A stretch of 36,239 bases of DNA from a virus, in IMG/VR virus record IMGVR_UViG_3300007538_000076, positions 1 through 36,239 of that record; one strand, 5' to 3'. The position numbers and the translations under genes are program-made. Under the pieces are notes generated by a model. The model was given only the letters and a program-made list of their open reading frames with translations. It searched no databases and was not told the DNA's origin. Below are positions 8,462-32,177 of this stretch, piece after piece (position 1 is the first letter of the stretch; the number at the start of each line of letters is the position of its first letter).

Positions 8462-10051
8462 ATGAGTCATAACATGGTCTTCGCAAGTGAAGACAAACTA
8501 CAACAAAAAGTTATTAAAGGTGCCAACATATTGGCTGATAATGTTGCTTCAACGCTGGGACCGAGAGGAAGAACAGTTCTTCTACAAGAAAAAGGTAAAA
8601 CTCCTTTTGTTAGCAAAGACGGTATTACCGTTGCTCACTTTGTTCATTTAGACGATCCATTTGAAAACGCTGGCGCGCAGTTAATTAAACAAGCAGCAGT
8701 AGAAACAAACGGAACGGCTGGGGATGGAACCACAACATCAACAGTTCTTGCTCGCTCTATTCTTGTTGAATCGCAAAGATATATTCTTGCTGGCTCTTCT
8801 CCAACTGAATTACAACGTGATTTACAAACAGTTGCAAATGAAGTTGTAGCAAACCTTTCAGAGCTTACTTATCCAATCAAAAGTATTGAAGACATTAAGC
8901 ACATCGCTACGATCTCTGCTAATAATGACGAGGCGATTGGTGACTTGATTTCTCTTGCTGTTGATCGAGTGGGTCAAGACGGCGCGATTACAATTGAAGA
9001 ATCAAGATCTATTGAGACAAGCTTAGATGTTGTTGAGGGCTTTCGCTTTGAAGGCTCGTATGCAGCAGGAGCTTTTATTAATGACGAGCGCCGTGCTATT
9101 ATGTATTATGAAGAGCCTTTGTTTTTAATTACAGATCATAAGCTTGAAAGTGTATCTCAAGCAGATCCAAATAGTATTCTTTCAATTCTTCAGGTTGCGA
9201 ATAGAACTGGACGACCAATTATTTTTATTGCTGAAGAAATTGAAGGTCAAGCGCTCGCTTCTTTAATTTACAACGCAGTCAAGCGCAAAGAAACAAATGC
9301 AGGTATTCGCGCTGCTGCAATTAAAATCTCTTGTTATGGAGAAGAGCGCAGAGCAATAATGGAAGATTTAGCGTTGTCTGTTGGTGCGACATTTATTACT
9401 CGTGAAAGTGGTATGCAATTAAAAGACGCTAAACTAGAGCACCTGGGATCCGCAAAGTCAATTGAAAGCACAATAGAAAAGATTACTATTGTTGGCGGAA
9501 CTGGTGATTATGAGCGTATTGAAGAACAAATCGGTACGTTTAAAGCTTTGATTGAGCAAAGCAGCGATTTATCTTTCTGCGAAAGAATACAAGATCGCAT
9601 TGTAAGGCTGTCGTCTGGTGTTGCCGTTATTAAAGTTGGCGGCTCAACAGAAGTTGAAATGATAGAAAGAAAGCATAGAATTGAAGATGCGCTTGAAGCG
9701 GTAAGATCAGCACAAGAAGAAGGAATCGTTGGTGGTGGTGGAACTGCTTTGCTACGCGCAAGCTTGAGACTACAAGGTGACTCTGAAGCACACGCTATTA
9801 TTAAGCGTGCTTGTCAAGCTCCAATCCGTAAAATGGCTGAAAACTCTGGTTTATCTCCAGATATTATAGTTAAAGATGTTCTTGAATCTTCTGATCAAGA
9901 AGGTTGGGATTTTAAACAAAATCGCTTGTCAAACATGCTTGAGAGTGGTATTATAGATCCAGTAAAAGTCTCAAAGACGGCTTTACTAAACGCAGTTAGC
10001 TGTGCTGGTACGCTAATCACAACTAACTACGGCATTATACAGGTAGAGTAA
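8462..10051 (+). CDS. groEL: phage GroEL-like chaperonin
   Basis: 529 aa, close to bacterial GroEL length. ATP-site elements are present: TLGPRGR (31-37), Asp53 in KDGITVA, GDGTTT (87-92), and EEGIVGGGGTAL near 420 with the catalytic Asp of IEDAL just before. The C-terminus ends GIIQVE and lacks the GGM tail. No GroES or gp31-type co-chaperonin is visible in the window, so it would use the host's, or act alone as reported for some phage GroELs. It starts one base after the methylase stop. The body is divergent but intact. Confidence 0.93.
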   Translation: MSHNMVFASEDKLQQKVIKGANILADNVASTLGPRGRTVLLQEKGKTPFVSKDGITVAHFVHLDDPFENAGAQLIKQAAVETNGTAGDGTTTSTVLARSILVESQRYILAGSSPTELQRDLQTVANEVVANLSELTYPIKSIEDIKHIATISANNDEAIGDLISLAVDRVGQDGAITIEESRSIETSLDVVEGFRFEGSYAAGAFINDERRAIMYYEEPLFLITDHKLESVSQADPNSILSILQVANRTGRPIIFIAEEIEGQALASLIYNAVKRKETNAGIRAAAIKISCYGEERRAIMEDLALSVGATFITRESGMQLKDAKLEHLGSAKSIESTIEKITIVGGTGDYERIEEQIGTFKALIEQSSDLSFCERIQDRIVRLSSGVAVIKVGGSTEVEMIERKHRIEDALEAVRSAQEEGIVGGGGTALLRASLRLQGDSEAHAIIKRACQAPIRKMAENSGLSPDIIVKDVLESSDQEGWDFKQNRLSNMLESGIIDPVKVSKTALLNAVSCAGTLITTNYGIIQVE

Positions 10052-17281: not shown

Positions 17282-17674
17282 ATGAAGATAGGCGATTTGA
17301 TAACTGATGATCCCGATTTCAACATGGGGATTATTTTTGAATTTGTTGATGAAGATAATTATGTAGTATTCACTACTGATGGTAAAAGATACCATTTCTG
17401 GTCTGAAGTTCAAAAAGATGGAACAATAATAAGATATTTAAATGGGTTTATTCACTCAAGAAAAGGTCCAGCGCGTGAAAACACAAAAACTGGACGTAAA
17501 GAATGGTGGATAGATAATTATTTACATCGCATTGAAGGACCGGCAATTATTCATGGAGATTATGAATCTTATTATCTGCGTGGGCAACCTTACAGTAAAG
17601 AAGCTTGGAAACTCGCAGTAGATAAAATAAAAAAAGTTCTTGACAAAATCTCTAAGAACGGGTTACATTGTTAG
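17282..17674 (+). CDS. GDL-type domain fused to MORN-like repeats
   Basis: 130 aa from ATG 17282, only 3 nt after the tRNA-Gln 3' end and without a ribosome site, so tRNA processing would leave a nearly leaderless message. The N-terminus is MKIGDLITDD, as in the small GDLV family. Residues 52-110 (NGFIHSRKGPA, NYLHRIEGPAIIHGDYESYYLRGQPYS) look like MORN-type repeats in which N-G-x-LHRxxGPA recurs. The 3' end overlaps the next promoter. Confidence 0.75.
   Translation: MKIGDLITDDPDFNMGIIFEFVDEDNYVVFTTDGKRYHFWSEVQKDGTIIRYLNGFIHSRKGPARENTKTGRKEWWIDNYLHRIEGPAIIHGDYESYYLRGQPYSKEAWKLAVDKIKKVLDKISKNGLHC
17640..17669 (+). promoter_or_regulatory. promoter
   Basis: TTGACA 17640-17645, 18-bp spacer, TACATT 17664-17669, inside the 3' end of the gene at 17282. 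Drives the pentapeptide gene at 17694. Confidence 0.75.
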
Positions 17675-25374: not shown

Positions 25375-25866
25375 ATGAATCTATCAAACGGTTGGTTTCA
25401 AAACTTTAACTTTCAAGAAGCTAACTTAAGAGAAGTTGACTTTTCAAATAGTGACCTGACCAACGCTAACCTGATTGACGCTGACCTGATTGGCGCTAAC
25501 CTGCACGGCGCTGACCTGTATGGCGCTTACTTGACCAGCGCTAACCTGACCGACGCTGACCTGAGAGGCGCTGACCTGACCGACGCTTACTTGACCAGCG
25601 CTAACCTGAGAGGCGCTGACCTGAGAGGCGCTAATCTGATTGGCGCTAACCTGAGTAGTGCTTACCTGTATGGCGCTAACCTGCACGGCGCTTACCTGAG
25701 AGACGCTAACCTGAGATACGCTAACTTGACCGGCGCTAACCTGACCGGCGCTAACCTGACCGGCGCTAACCTGTATGACGCTATCCTGAGATACGCTAAA
25801 TACGGTGAAGCTACTGTTTTTCCTACTAATTTTGATCCTGTTAAGACTGGCATGATCAAAGTCTAA
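25375..25866 (+). CDS. pentapeptide-repeat protein, copy 2
   Basis: 163 aa. Same head as copy 1 ([13 protein letters not shown]) and same tail (GEATVFP, FDPVKTGMIKV), with a different number and order of pentapeptides between, including repeated LTSAN, LRGAD and LTGAN units. Units are 15-bp near-copies of CTGANNGGCGCTAAC. The leader before ATG (AAAGGAAAGGTC) is shared with copies 4 and 5. Confidence 0.92.
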   Translation: MNLSNGWFQNFNFQEANLREVDFSNSDLTNANLIDADLIGANLHGADLYGAYLTSANLTDADLRGADLTDAYLTSANLRGADLRGANLIGANLSSAYLYGANLHGAYLRDANLRYANLTGANLTGANLTGANLYDAILRYAKYGEATVFPTNFDPVKTGMIKV

Positions 25867-25929: not shown

Positions 25930-26751
25930 ATGCCTCGCATCACTTATCACGACCGCTTTACCGCTCTTCTTGCAAAAGACTACCTGTCCGATCGAGATCG
26001 GAACTTTGCTGAGAGCCTTTTTAGCTACTATCAGCGTAAGGGAACGCTAACCGCTGGTAGACGTAATGCTTTTGTAAATATGGAAGAGCGCTATGCTACT
26101 CGTCCCGAACCTAGCGCTTCTGAAGACGTAATCAGTGAGCTTCAGGCTCTTCAAGGGAAAATTGAAAGTTTTAATCCGAATAGCTGGGATCAGGGTTTTG
26201 TAATTAGTGTTGTTCAGCAGGTTGTTTCTGGTCGTCAACTTTCAGATCGTCAAAATGAGATTCTTGGGCAGATTAAAGATCGTTATTCGGATACAGCTAT
26301 CCAGTCTTTTCACGATTTTCGTGATACCTTTAACGATGGTCTGCGCGAAGATTGGCGCGTTCTTATGACTTACTATCATAGTTTGCCAGAAAGCTATTTC
26401 GTTAAGCAAGTAACTGAATTCTTTGCAGATCCCGAAAACCATGTTCCGAGCCAGAGAGACTACGAGCGTATTCGTAACAATAAATACGCTAACAAGATTC
26501 TTTTGGGCTGGAACAGCGAGCCTCAATGGCAAAGCGGCGAAATGGTTAGCCTTCGTGATACTGCGCCGAGACTAACCAGCAAGCATTTTCCAACAAATTT
26601 AGGTTTAGTTATTCGTTCTAATTCTCGCGTTCCACAAAACGCATGCGTTGGTAACAAATTGTATGAAGTGTTGCCGATTGGCGGGGTTGCTCCTGTTGAG
26701 ATTGAGGAGCGTTACCTAAAGAACGCCACTCGCAAGAGAAAGAAAAGTTAA
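25930..26751 (+). CDS. phage protein with duplicated helical motif and C-terminal SH3-like domain
   Basis: 273 aa with AAGGAG upstream. Residues 16-55 (LAKDYLSDRDRNFAESLFSYY, then GRRNAFVNMEERY) are echoed at 94-122 (VSGRQLSDRQNEILGQIKDRY), an internal duplication. The C-terminal third (SGEMVSLRDTAP, NLGLVIRSNS, KLYEVLPIG) repeats the strand pattern of the small GDLV family, so that domain occurs both free and fused. The tail is basic. The 3' untranslated region forms the structured RNA. Function unknown. Confidence 0.75.
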   Translation: MPRITYHDRFTALLAKDYLSDRDRNFAESLFSYYQRKGTLTAGRRNAFVNMEERYATRPEPSASEDVISELQALQGKIESFNPNSWDQGFVISVVQQVVSGRQLSDRQNEILGQIKDRYSDTAIQSFHDFRDTFNDGLREDWRVLMTYYHSLPESYFVKQVTEFFADPENHVPSQRDYERIRNNKYANKILLGWNSEPQWQSGEMVSLRDTAPRLTSKHFPTNLGLVIRSNSRVPQNACVGNKLYEVLPIGGVAPVEIEERYLKNATRKRKKS

Positions 26752-26757
26752 ATTTAT

Positions 26758-26913
26758 GTAGCTGAGAGGGTAAAGATATGCTATTATTTGGTTCATAGCC
26801 GTCAACGAACCAAGCCAATCGTAAGGTGTGTTTTTACGTAAAGGCAAATTTAAAGGGCGGATAGCGATGTTACGCGGCGAAAACAGCGGCTTATCCTCTC
26901 AGCTACTTTTTTT
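26758..26913 (+). ncRNA. probable structured non-coding RNA
   Basis: A perfect 12-bp closing stem (GTAGCTGAGAGG 26758-26769 with CCTCTCAGCTAC 26895-26906) encloses 125 nt without a coding frame, followed directly by seven T. Inside: hairpin TTGGTTC/GAACCAA (about 26788-26812); a CGTAA/TTACG hairpin (26820-26836); a GGATAGC/GC-TATCC stem near 26859-26896 that competes with the last two closing pairs; and AGCCG (26797-26801) able to pair with CGGCT (26887-26891) as a pseudoknot. It has no promoter of its own and would come from the 3' end of the transcript of 25930. No known class recognised; it is not a tRNA, tmRNA or RNase P pattern. Confidence 0.72.
26895..26913 (+). terminator. 3' arm plus T run of the structured RNA
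   Basis: The 3' arm of the closing stem is followed by TTTTTTT (26907-26913), as in an intrinsic terminator whose loop is the whole RNA. The next promoter begins 10 bp later. Confidence 0.6.
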
Positions 26914-26922
26914 ATTTTCTTC

Positions 26923-26950
26923 TTGACAGGTTTTCATATCCGGCTATATT
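26923..26950 (+). promoter_or_regulatory. promoter
   Basis: TTGACA 26923-26928, 16-bp spacer, TATATT 26945-26950. Drives pentapeptide copy 3. Confidence 0.9.
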
Positions 26951-26974: not shown

Positions 26975-27376
26975 ATGAATCTATCAAATGGTTGGTTTCA
27001 AAACTTTAACTTTGAAGGCTCTGACTTGAAAGAAGTCAATTTCTCAAATAGCGATCTGAGATTGGCTAACCTGTATGGCGCTTACCTGAGAGACGCTGAC
27101 CTGAGAGACGCTGACCTGAGAGACGCTAACCTGACCCGCACTAGCTTGTCTGGCGCTGACCTGACTGGCGCTGACCTGAGATCTGCTAACCTGTTTGGCG
27201 CTGACCTGACCGGCGCTGACCTGACCGGCGCTGACCTGAGATCCGCTAACCTGAGATCCGCTAACCTGTCTGGCGCTAACCTGAGATCCGCTAACCTGAC
27301 CAACGCTGTATACAACGAAGCTACTGTTTTTCCTGGCGGTTTTGGACCTGTTAAGGCTGACATGATCAAAACCTAA
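26975..27376 (+). CDS. pentapeptide-repeat protein, copy 3
   Basis: 133 aa, the shortest copy. Head [25 protein letters not shown]; repeats rich in LRDAD, LTGAD and LRSAN; tail [18 protein letters not shown]. Three identical [10 protein letters not shown] units follow each other near 27085-27135. Fewer repeats than the other copies shows that the array changes length by whole 15-bp units. Confidence 0.92.
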
Positions 27377-28897: not shown

Positions 28898-30124
28898 ATG
28901 AAGAACAAAAACTTTGACCTCAACATGCATACTGCGCGCCTGCTTCTACAAGAGCCATTCTTTGCTGCCCTGTCTCGGCGTATTGACAAGACCGCTAGCA
29001 CGGCGCTGCCTACTGCCGGTGTTCACTTTAATGAGCATCGTCAACAGTTTGAGTTGCTTTACAACCCTGAGTTTTTTGCGCAACTGAGCGAGCAACACAA
29101 GCTTGGCGTGCTAATGCATGAGTTTTATCACATTATCTTTGAGCATGTTCTTCTCCGTAAGCCAGAAGGGGGTATTCAGAAGATTGACAATATCGCTATG
29201 GACCTTGCGATCAATGGTCTGCCTGAAATGCGTAACAAGATCCCTGGTGAGTCTTGCCCCGGTCCTGTACTTCCTGGCTCCTCCGAGCCTATGAGGGGCT
29301 GTATCCCCGGCGAAGGAATGTTCGCGGATTTCCCTTCCGAAAAGTCTTATGAGTATTACAAGCAAATGCTTGAAGAAAAGTTTGAACAGGATCCGAACAG
29401 CGGCGGCGGCGATGGTGGCGGCGACGGGCTTGGCGACGTAGACTCTATGGACTCTCACGAGGGTTTTGGGCAGGCTTCCGGGACTGACGCTGCTGTAGCT
29501 GCCGAGCGTCTAAAGCAAGCTGTGAGGGATGCAGCAGAAGAGGCTTCAAAGTCTAACAATTGGGGCTCTGTCTCGGCGTCGATGCGCAAGCGTATCATGG
29601 ATTCAATCGCTACTCATATTGACTGGCGCTCTGTCCTGAGATACTTTGTCAAGACTTCTCAGCGCGCCGATAAGCGCTCTACACCCAGGCGTATCAATCG
29701 ACGTTTCCCCAAGATTCACCCCGGTAAGCGCGTGCGGCGACACGCTAAGATCGCTATCAGCATCGATCAGTCTGGCTCTGTATCTGACGCTATGCTCGCT
29801 GCTTTCTTTAGTGAACTTAACAATTTGGCGACCATCGCGGAGTTTACTGTGATCCCGTTTGATACTGAGGTAGCTGAAGACAAGGTTTACACTTGGAAGC
29901 GCGGCGAAAGTCGTGTTTGGGAGCGCGTTTTGACTGGTGGCACTTGCTTCAACGCCCCAACTAACTATGTCAATGAACGTAATTTTGACGGTCACATCAT
30001 CCTGACCGATATGATGGCTCCTAAGCCTGTTGCCAGTCGATGCCAGCGCATGTGGCTAACCGATCAGAACGGAGCTAGCCGCCCGTATTTCCAGACAAAT
30101 GAGCGGGTGATCGCGATTAATTAA
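28898..30124 (+). CDS. HExxH metallopeptidase-like / VWA-like protein (DUF2201 type)
   Basis: 408 aa. The N-terminal part carries HEFYH (74-78), a HExxH zinc motif in a helix (LGVLMHEFYHIIFEHVL). A Gly/Asp-rich linker (168-182) leads to a VWA-like domain with DQSGSVS (290-296), the D-x-S-x-S metal site, and GGTCF plus ILTDM further on. This arrangement matches proteins that pair with MoxR-family ATPases in bacteria, and such an ATPase lies at 31113. The pair may remodel or disable a host complex. GC content is higher than in region 1. The two genes are not adjacent: a pentapeptide gene, a small gene and an empty promoter unit lie between. Confidence 0.83.
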   Translation: MKNKNFDLNMHTARLLLQEPFFAALSRRIDKTASTALPTAGVHFNEHRQQFELLYNPEFFAQLSEQHKLGVLMHEFYHIIFEHVLLRKPEGGIQKIDNIAMDLAINGLPEMRNKIPGESCPGPVLPGSSEPMRGCIPGEGMFADFPSEKSYEYYKQMLEEKFEQDPNSGGGDGGGDGLGDVDSMDSHEGFGQASGTDAAVAAERLKQAVRDAAEEASKSNNWGSVSASMRKRIMDSIATHIDWRSVLRYFVKTSQRADKRSTPRRINRRFPKIHPGKRVRRHAKIAISIDQSGSVSDAMLAAFFSELNNLATIAEFTVIPFDTEVAEDKVYTWKRGESRVWERVLTGGTCFNAPTNYVNERNFDGHIILTDMMAPKPVASRCQRMWLTDQNGASRPYFQTNERVIAIN

Positions 30125-31112: not shown

Positions 31113-32177
31113 ATGGCTACCATCGACTTTGCAACCTTCCTTGGTTTTATTGACCACGTTCTTGACGCTCGTTTCCCGGTCCTTATCCGTGGTCGCCACG
31201 GTGTCGGTAAGTCTGAAGTTGTCTATCAGACCGCTGCACGACGTGGGCTCGACGTGGTAGAGCGCCGCGCTTCTCAAATGACAGAAGGTGATCTGCTTGG
31301 TCTTCCCGACACCGCCGACCTCTCCGATGGTCGCAAGGCTACAACGTGGAATGCGCCCGATTGGCTTGTCACCGCTTGCACTGAGCCGGTTGTTCTCTTC
31401 TTGGATGAAGTTGACCGCGCGACTGTGGAGGTTCGACAAGGGCTTTTCGAGTTGACTGACTCTCGCAAGATCAACGGCTGGCATCTTCACCCAGGAACCC
31501 TTGTGCTCGCCGCTGTCAATGGTGGTGAAAATGGAGCGCAGTATCAGGTTGGTGAAATGGACCCTGCTGAACTTGACCGCTGGACAGTCTATGATATTGA
31601 GCCGTCCGTTGAAGACTGGCTCAATTGGGCGAATGGCAAGGTTGATCCTATCCTTTGGGATTTCATCAACGCGGAGCGTGCTCACCTTGAGCACGGCGGC
31701 GAGCACGAGCCTAACAAAGTTTACCCTTCTCGCCGCTCCTGGGTTCGCTTCAATGGAGTTGGTACTAGTGCTAACGTCTTTAAGCAAGGCGCAGATCTAA
31801 ATGTGCTCTTCAACCTTGCTATGGGTTTTGTTGGCTTCGAAGCGGCTATCAAGCTTCGCGATTTTGTCAACAACTATCAGTATCAAGTGTCGGTTGAAGA
31901 TCTGATTGACCGGGGACAGATTGACCGTACTAGCTCTTGGGGGATCAACGATCACTCCGCTATGGTCGAAAAGCTTACTGCTTCCGGCATCTTCTCGGAG
32001 TCTGATTGGAGTCAGGATCGGATCGTTAACCTCGCTGAGTATTTCATCGCCCTTCCCTCTGAGGTCGCTCTCAAGCTTTGGGCTGTGATGGGCGCTGCTA
32101 ACAATATCTCACTTGTGAAGGCGATTCACCCCCTGATCGCTGACCAGATCGTCAAGCTAATCAAGGTTGAGAGCTAA
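31113..32177 (+). CDS. MoxR-family AAA+ ATPase
   Basis: 354 aa with GAGGAGAG upstream. Walker A GRHGVGKS (27-34), Walker B VVLFLDE (93-99), sensor-1 Asn136 in LAAVNGG, and EMDPAELDRW, the sensor-2/arginine region typical of MoxR proteins. MoxR ATPases act with VWA-domain partners to activate or remodel enzymes; the natural partner here is 28898. The C-terminal third is helical and not recognised. Codon use is GC-richer than in the small genes around it, suggesting the pair was acquired together. Confidence 0.88.
   Translation: MATIDFATFLGFIDHVLDARFPVLIRGRHGVGKSEVVYQTAARRGLDVVERRASQMTEGDLLGLPDTADLSDGRKATTWNAPDWLVTACTEPVVLFLDEVDRATVEVRQGLFELTDSRKINGWHLHPGTLVLAAVNGGENGAQYQVGEMDPAELDRWTVYDIEPSVEDWLNWANGKVDPILWDFINAERAHLEHGGEHEPNKVYPSRRSWVRFNGVGTSANVFKQGADLNVLFNLAMGFVGFEAAIKLRDFVNNYQYQVSVEDLIDRGQIDRTSSWGINDHSAMVEKLTASGIFSESDWSQDRIVNLAEYFIALPSEVALKLWAVMGAANNISLVKAIHPLIADQIVKLIKVES

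Follow-up and report, generated by a model that had tools for sequence, protein, structure and literature searches.

A family of predicted pseudoknotted RNAs in phage genomes assembled from metagenomes

Introduction

In a 36,239-base IMG/VR virus record, called the window here, a gene is followed by a non-coding stretch of 149 nt that looks able to close into a folded RNA. Is this structure conserved, and if so, does it belong to the transcript in front of it, to the gene behind it or to neither? A reading made from the sequence alone had placed it in a 3′ untranslated region and considered a switch. The comparative analysis presented here indicates that the stretch is a member of a new family of folded RNA, unrelated to any known RNA family tested. 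We do not claim a new function for it.

Results

Fold of the element in the window

The element occupies positions 26758–26906 on the + strand (Table 1). Its ends pair in a perfect 12-bp helix (26758–26769 with 26895–26906) that encloses 125 nt, just as the sequence-only reading had it, and the pairing can be extended to 16 bp if one G·U pair is included (26758–26773 with 26891–26906). We refer to this closing stem as P1. The folding energy of the stretch is −54.8 kcal/mol vs −36.2 ± 3.8 kcal/mol for shuffled sequences, none of which (0 of 200) was as good. Two internal hairpins had been described earlier and both are real (P2 and P3). The same is true of the 5-bp pseudoknot, which had been put forward only as a possibility; its conserved pairing is CCGUC with GGCGG, and the equivalent pairing covaries in relatives. 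The RNA starts 7 nt past the stop codon of the upstream gene, P0001. It was also said to have no promoter of its own, and our scan of the 70 nt upstream agrees, as nothing better than in shuffles was found there.

Table 1. Features of the RNA locus in the window (all on the + strand)
Feature	Position	Basis or remark
Upstream gene P0001, 273 aa, family of unknown function	25930..26751	Homologue in all nine first records
Structured RNA, P1 to P1′	26758..26906	Fold z −4.85; window-free model R3 48.7 bits; 38-sequence alignment A9
P1, closing stem, 5′ strand GTAGCTGAGAGGGTAA	26758..26773	16 bp with one G·U
J1/2, joining strand, A/U-rich	26774..26788	A/U-rich in most members (alignments A5, A8)
P2 hairpin, TGGTTC-(12-nt loop)-GAACCA	26789..26812	38 sequences: pairing in 98% of cells, two-sided changes at 4 of 6 pairs
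Pseudoknot, 5′ strand CCGUC, inside the P2 loop	26799..26803	Equivalent columns 94% paired
P3 hairpin (GCC/GGC and CGUAAGG/UUUUACG), variable part	26814..26845	Minimum-free-energy fold
A-rich strand AAATTTAAAG, 5′ of the second pseudoknot strand	26846..26855	Equals the GRAGTTGAAAG strand of relatives (A8/A9)
Pseudoknot, 3′ strand GGCGG	26856..26860	Register verified; columns as for the 5′ strand
P6 hairpin, CGC-GGCGAAAACA-GCG	26873..26888	Conserved loop, consensus GGYRAGRACA
P1′, closing stem, 3′ strand TTATCCTCTCAGCTAC	26891..26906	As for P1
T run (7 T), terminator-like, not conserved	26907..26913	Directly after P1′
Promoter-like TTGACA-16-TATATT of the next gene (26975)	26923..26950	Sequence; downstream of the RNA

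The surroundings of the RNA have several features of their own. P0001 represents a conserved protein family with N-terminal MPRITYHDRFAALLAKDY and C-terminal GSMVAL...GxKxYKLLPIGG. It gave no acceptable match in Pfam and PHROGs and none in prokaryote genomes, and no relatives of the P0001 and MGYRSEV proteins were found in INPHARED. The genes flanking the P0001–RNA unit (25375–25866 and 26975–27376) have mutually similar C-terminal ends that resemble pentapeptide repeats. A promoter-plus-leader module (TTCTTGACA...TATATT...) is repeated before many genes with 80–93% identity, its copies in the window being at 17661, 25321, 26942, 30155, 32746, 33901, 34946 and 35515; this is probably a phage-wide promoter type, and tandem TTGACA boxes are seen in relatives. 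Elsewhere the window encodes a GroEL-like chaperonin of 529 aa (8462–10051; phrog_5725; Cpn60_TCP1 E 3.7e-56), a protein uncommon in phages. The genes at 28898–30124 and 31113–32177 encode a DUF2201/VWA metallopeptidase-like protein and a MoxR-type AAA+ ATPase. The latter is kept throughout the phage lineage, and its best isolate relatives come from Vibrio phages of 191–195 kb (~31% identity).

Search for relatives

Relatives were collected by several routes. One started from the IMG/VR relatives of the upstream protein (46–49% identity, later 39%), and directly past the stop codon of each of them there is a similar element. A search with the conserved 3′ motif gave three further members, two of them behind a different gene. 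The first nine members were picked without reference to the pseudoknot. A scan with the neighbouring MoxR-type ATPase yielded 80 loci of the same phage lineage, in records that reach 205 kb. About 15 more members came from a sequence-blind descriptor (P2 with a 12-nt loop, the pseudoknot and an enclosing P1) and a second, motif-based version of it. When applied to several hundred unrelated loci, the motif-based version produced no real-looking match; its top score on these controls, 16.8, came from one sequence present twice. Further copies were found in whole records with a covariance model that contained only P2 and three P6 pairs and had no pseudoknot. L576 was recovered through its P6 sequence alone, and it carries a different pairing, UUCAC/GUGAA.

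The family is present in at least 32 IMG/VR phage records, which carry 35 firm copies; seven more copies are tentative (L529, L532, L547, L559, L560, L562 and L563). Some genomes hold two diverged copies. The window element is recognized by model R3, built from 23 other members, at 48.7 bits with E = 1.7e-15 (a rough value, from a shortened calibration), and it is the sole match of this model within the 36-kb window. Model matches under ~20 bits are unreliable without the anatomy. L072 and L076, at 19.4 bits, were rejected as members, as they lie inside a gene.

An exact search for the P1 strand returned only chance matches, inside genes. BLASTN in INPHARED found nothing for the window element and only chance matches for a type-B copy (see below). 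A pattern scan of prokaryote genomes gave at least 119 matches, and none of those listed has the fold.

Anatomy and covariation of the family

Members of the family share one order of parts: P1, an A/U-rich strand, P2, a variable P3, the GRAGTTGAAA strand, the second pseudoknot strand, CTGGCGAG, P6 and P1′. The whole element measures ~115–220 nt. The consensus of the P2 loop is nnTTCA-nn-GYCnnn-A-nYGAAnn, while P3 differs in length and sequence and is absent from short members. Around the second pseudoknot strand a short AGU/ACU pairing is possible, in columns that hardly vary; if it forms, the pseudoknot contact would be loop-to-loop. The terminator-like T run noted earlier is indeed present behind P1′ in the window, but only three of 24 members have one (the window, L489 and L491).

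In the alignment of the first nine members (A5), P2 together with a 6-bp pairing between its loop and a downstream strand is formed in 97.2% of the cells vs 83.4% in shuffles. The covariation score is 0.444 vs 0.173, none of 500 shuffles being as good, and pairing falls to 29–50% when the partner is slid by one to three columns. Across 24 members (A8), pairing of the fold reaches 96.6%, and two-sided changes are seen at ten pairs (0 of 500 shuffles), a count which is partly circular, as some of the 24 were chosen by requiring the pseudoknot. In the alignment of 38 matches (A9), P2 and the pseudoknot are 96.2% paired vs 76.2% in shuffles, with 73 two-sided changes vs 12 and again none of 500 shuffles as good; sliding the partner by one to three columns leaves 27–56%. 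All six pseudoknot pairs show a two-sided change in one or more of the 38 sequences, and one of these pairs appears as UA 21 times, AU and GC five times each and CG three times. Model-found members scoring 23 bits or more keep five or six of the six pairs (L495 was checked by eye). The covariation is not circular for the first nine members, chosen regardless of the pseudoknot, for those that came through the pseudoknot-free model or for L576, recovered through P6 alone.

P1 is conserved as a stem of ~9–22 bp that is re-formed with unrelated letters. It has 10–18 bp of differing sequence in all nine first members and 10–19 bp in model-found members at 23 bits or more. The compensatory changes in the closing stem, which the sequence-only reading had named as the thing to look for, are found among the relatives, and as no Rfam family matches either, that reading withstands the refutation it had itself proposed. 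The inner pairs of P6, CGC/GCG, are 97% paired and nearly invariant (A8). On inspection by eye, the outer P6 stems vary and are still paired in many members, for instance as GAUGG/CCAUC (L430), GUG/CAC (L017) and GGUGC/GCACC (L526), whereas that of the window is weak.

Genomic location of the copies

All members were drawn from metagenomic assemblies of interrelated records, so the counts given here are not independent. In 21 of 24 members of type A, which includes the window, a stop codon on the same strand lies 3–44 nt before the start of the RNA, and the promoter of the next gene is usually found downstream of it. The upstream gene is of the P0001 group in ten of these members and of the MGYRSEV group in eight; in the other six it shows no detectable similarity, and some of these six are mechanical ORFs only. 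Downstream genes are mixed as well, with one group of seven followed by small groups and singletons. L150 and L216 do have the P0001 gene, but at a distance of 6–8 kb from the RNA.

Other copies lie beside genes for tRNA or tmRNA. L540 and L541 are inside tRNA clusters, the tentative L532 has a tRNA-Ser within ~10 nt downstream, and the window RNA is ~4 kb from the closest tRNA gene. In nine records (type B) the RNA precedes a phage tmRNA gene, at a distance of 13–860 nt and in the same orientation; L525, L526, L527 and L545 are firm and L529, L547, L559, L560 and L562 tentative. In L525 the tmRNA follows directly after the RNA. Since neighbouring genes vary and copies occur in tRNA clusters and before tmRNA, the RNA is not tied to one mRNA.

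We rejected the idea that the RNA precedes every phage tmRNA, as it fails for nine of the 18 tmRNA genes of the lineage (none within ~1.5 kb upstream). A tmRNA gene above the Rfam cut-off was seen in 18 of 22 related phage records (G005, G006, G008, G010, G011, G014, G015, G016, G020, G021, G023, G025, G027, G033, G040, G058, G059 and G062), with tags such as ANNNNHFDSVRLAA. L526, L545 and L560 have a small ORF, starting with MWKLW or MWKVY, in the interval from the type-B RNA to the tmRNA gene.

Scanning for own promoters gave one in 41 at a shuffle level of 0.01, which is close to chance. This is L545 (G062:19714), where TTGACA-17-TAATAT ends 4 nt before P1; no other copy has a good own promoter. 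In the copies linked to MGYRSEV (L430, L452, L150, L216, L454 and L455), P1′ includes a TTGACA box that belongs to the next promoter region, and the complementary TGTCAAG is in P1.

Discussion

The element outlasts changes of both neighbour genes, which makes an RNA acting by itself the best reading. We lean, with modest confidence, towards a compact pseudoknotted noncoding RNA of large marine phages that is released from longer transcripts and acts in trans. It would be transcribed as the tail of the preceding gene's mRNA or within a tRNA/tmRNA transcript. Cleavage, or termination at the T run, might then release a stable RNA, with P1 sealing its two ends. The loop-2 pseudoknot would hold the core, and the conserved P6 loop with the strands around the pseudoknot would be the likely contact surface for a partner. 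The position of some copies beside tRNA and tmRNA genes suggests a role in translation or in tRNA and mRNA metabolism, where the partner may belong. A narrower version, in which the RNA is made with phage tRNAs and tmRNA and acts in translation takeover, in ribosome rescue or as a decoy for host defences directed at tRNAs or ribosomes, seems to us rather unlikely. Against the preferred reading, almost no copy has a recognizable promoter of its own, nine of the 18 tmRNA genes in the lineage are not closely preceded by such an RNA, and the window copy is ~4 kb from the nearest tRNA gene.

The main rival is a cis-acting 3′-UTR element that stops transcription or shields the upstream mRNA from 3′ exonucleases and has no separate life. 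We regard this as possible, though not probable. The position of type-A copies shortly behind a stop codon, usually before the next promoter, is what one would expect of it, as are the lack of an own promoter and, in the window, L489 and L491, P1 followed by a T run. The remaining 21 of 24 members have no such run, however, and the family conserves a pseudoknot and a specific loop where protection would require only a plain stem. The upstream genes are also unrelated to one another, and copies sit in tRNA clusters and before tmRNA. The earlier assignment to the 3′ untranslated region of the mRNA of 25930–26751 is therefore right about the location, but the tie is only local. It is decidedly unlikely that the RNA is a cis-regulatory leader, riboswitch-like or protein-binding, of the downstream gene. 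Four copies (L448, L493, L019 and L479) do lack a clear promoter between P1′ and the next start codon, and the RNA of L545 has a promoter in front of it and a small ORF (MWKLW..) behind. On the other hand, most type-A members, the window included, have a promoter between the RNA and the next gene; downstream gene families are not constant, and what follows L525 and L532 is a tmRNA and a tRNA-Ser.

We find a switch between P1 and a competing stem scarcely credible. The window does contain the letters for an alternative 6-bp pairing to the P1′ strand, but a stem this good turns up in 100 of 200 shuffles, and it is not retained in relatives (4–8 bp, for the most part no better than in shuffles). 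Both P1 and the pseudoknot survive sequence changes, so the family keeps the closed fold, and the proposal of a switch by competing stems is not upheld. The other role suggested in that proposal, a decoy that binds a protein or the ribosome, is conceivable. Nor is it at all likely that the RNA represents a diverged branch of some known class of phage RNA or tRNA-associated RNA (T4 RNA C/D, GOLLD, ROOL, tmRNA or others): some copies do share the neighbourhood of such RNAs, tRNA arrays and tmRNA, but there was no match in Rfam 15 and no credible one in the T4 tRNA region and nine isolate phage genomes.

The family, which is not in Rfam 15 and was not seen in the isolate phages tested, adds an RNA whose pseudoknot is supported by covariation and which recurs in a lineage of large marine phages (records up to 205 kb) known here from metagenomes only. 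Its copies beside tRNA and tmRNA genes raise a testable question: do these phages have a dedicated noncoding RNA that controls host translation?

Comparison with known RNAs

We scanned the window and its relatives with Rfam 15 at gathering and relaxed thresholds and found no match over the RNA, in line with the earlier remark that no known class was recognized; the only matches above the gathering threshold were neighbouring tRNA and tmRNA genes. The family model found no credible match in the genomes of T4, the Vibrio phages phiKT1024, Va1 and KVP40, phage G, Atu_ph07, CcrColossus, HTVC008M and P-SSM2, where the only listed match (KVP40, 13 bits) is under the control noise level. No description of this RNA was found in the open literature, of which our coverage is incomplete, and a prior description is possible. 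A CsrA/RsmA sponge was considered, since many members have GGA in the P6 loop, and rejected, because it is absent in the window, L452, L454, L455, L430 and L540. We also rejected a resemblance to hammerhead or RNase P RNAs and a sequestration of Shine-Dalgarno sequences, as the required letters are not conserved.

Intrinsic terminators and structured 3′-UTR ends also have a stable closing stem at the end of an mRNA, and three of 24 members share their T run. The "loop" of the present RNA, however, is a conserved pseudoknotted domain of more than 100 nt, and most members have no T run. tmRNA is likewise pseudoknotted and adjoins the type-B copies, but the present RNA has neither a tRNA-like end nor a tag ORF (ARAGORN, Rfam), and Rfam RF00023 recognizes the adjacent tmRNA genes and not this RNA. 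The T4 species 1 and 2 RNAs (rnaC and rnaD) are small stable RNAs of 139 and 119 nt made together with phage tRNAs. The present RNA may be similar to them in these respects, but the family model detects nothing credible in the T4 tRNA region that includes them (its top score there is 7.5 bits and covers only one short hairpin of the rnaC part).

GOLLD and ROOL occur in phages and prophages as structured, pseudoknotted noncoding RNAs, frequently next to tRNA genes, and their function is unknown (PMC12286853). They are elaborate and measure ~660 to over 800 nt. Both are several times larger than the present RNA and built from other helices, and it matches neither of their Rfam models. What it has in common with them is the phage habitat, a pseudoknot and an unknown function. 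L540, L541 and L532 are close to tRNA genes, while the window copy is 4 kb from the nearest one.
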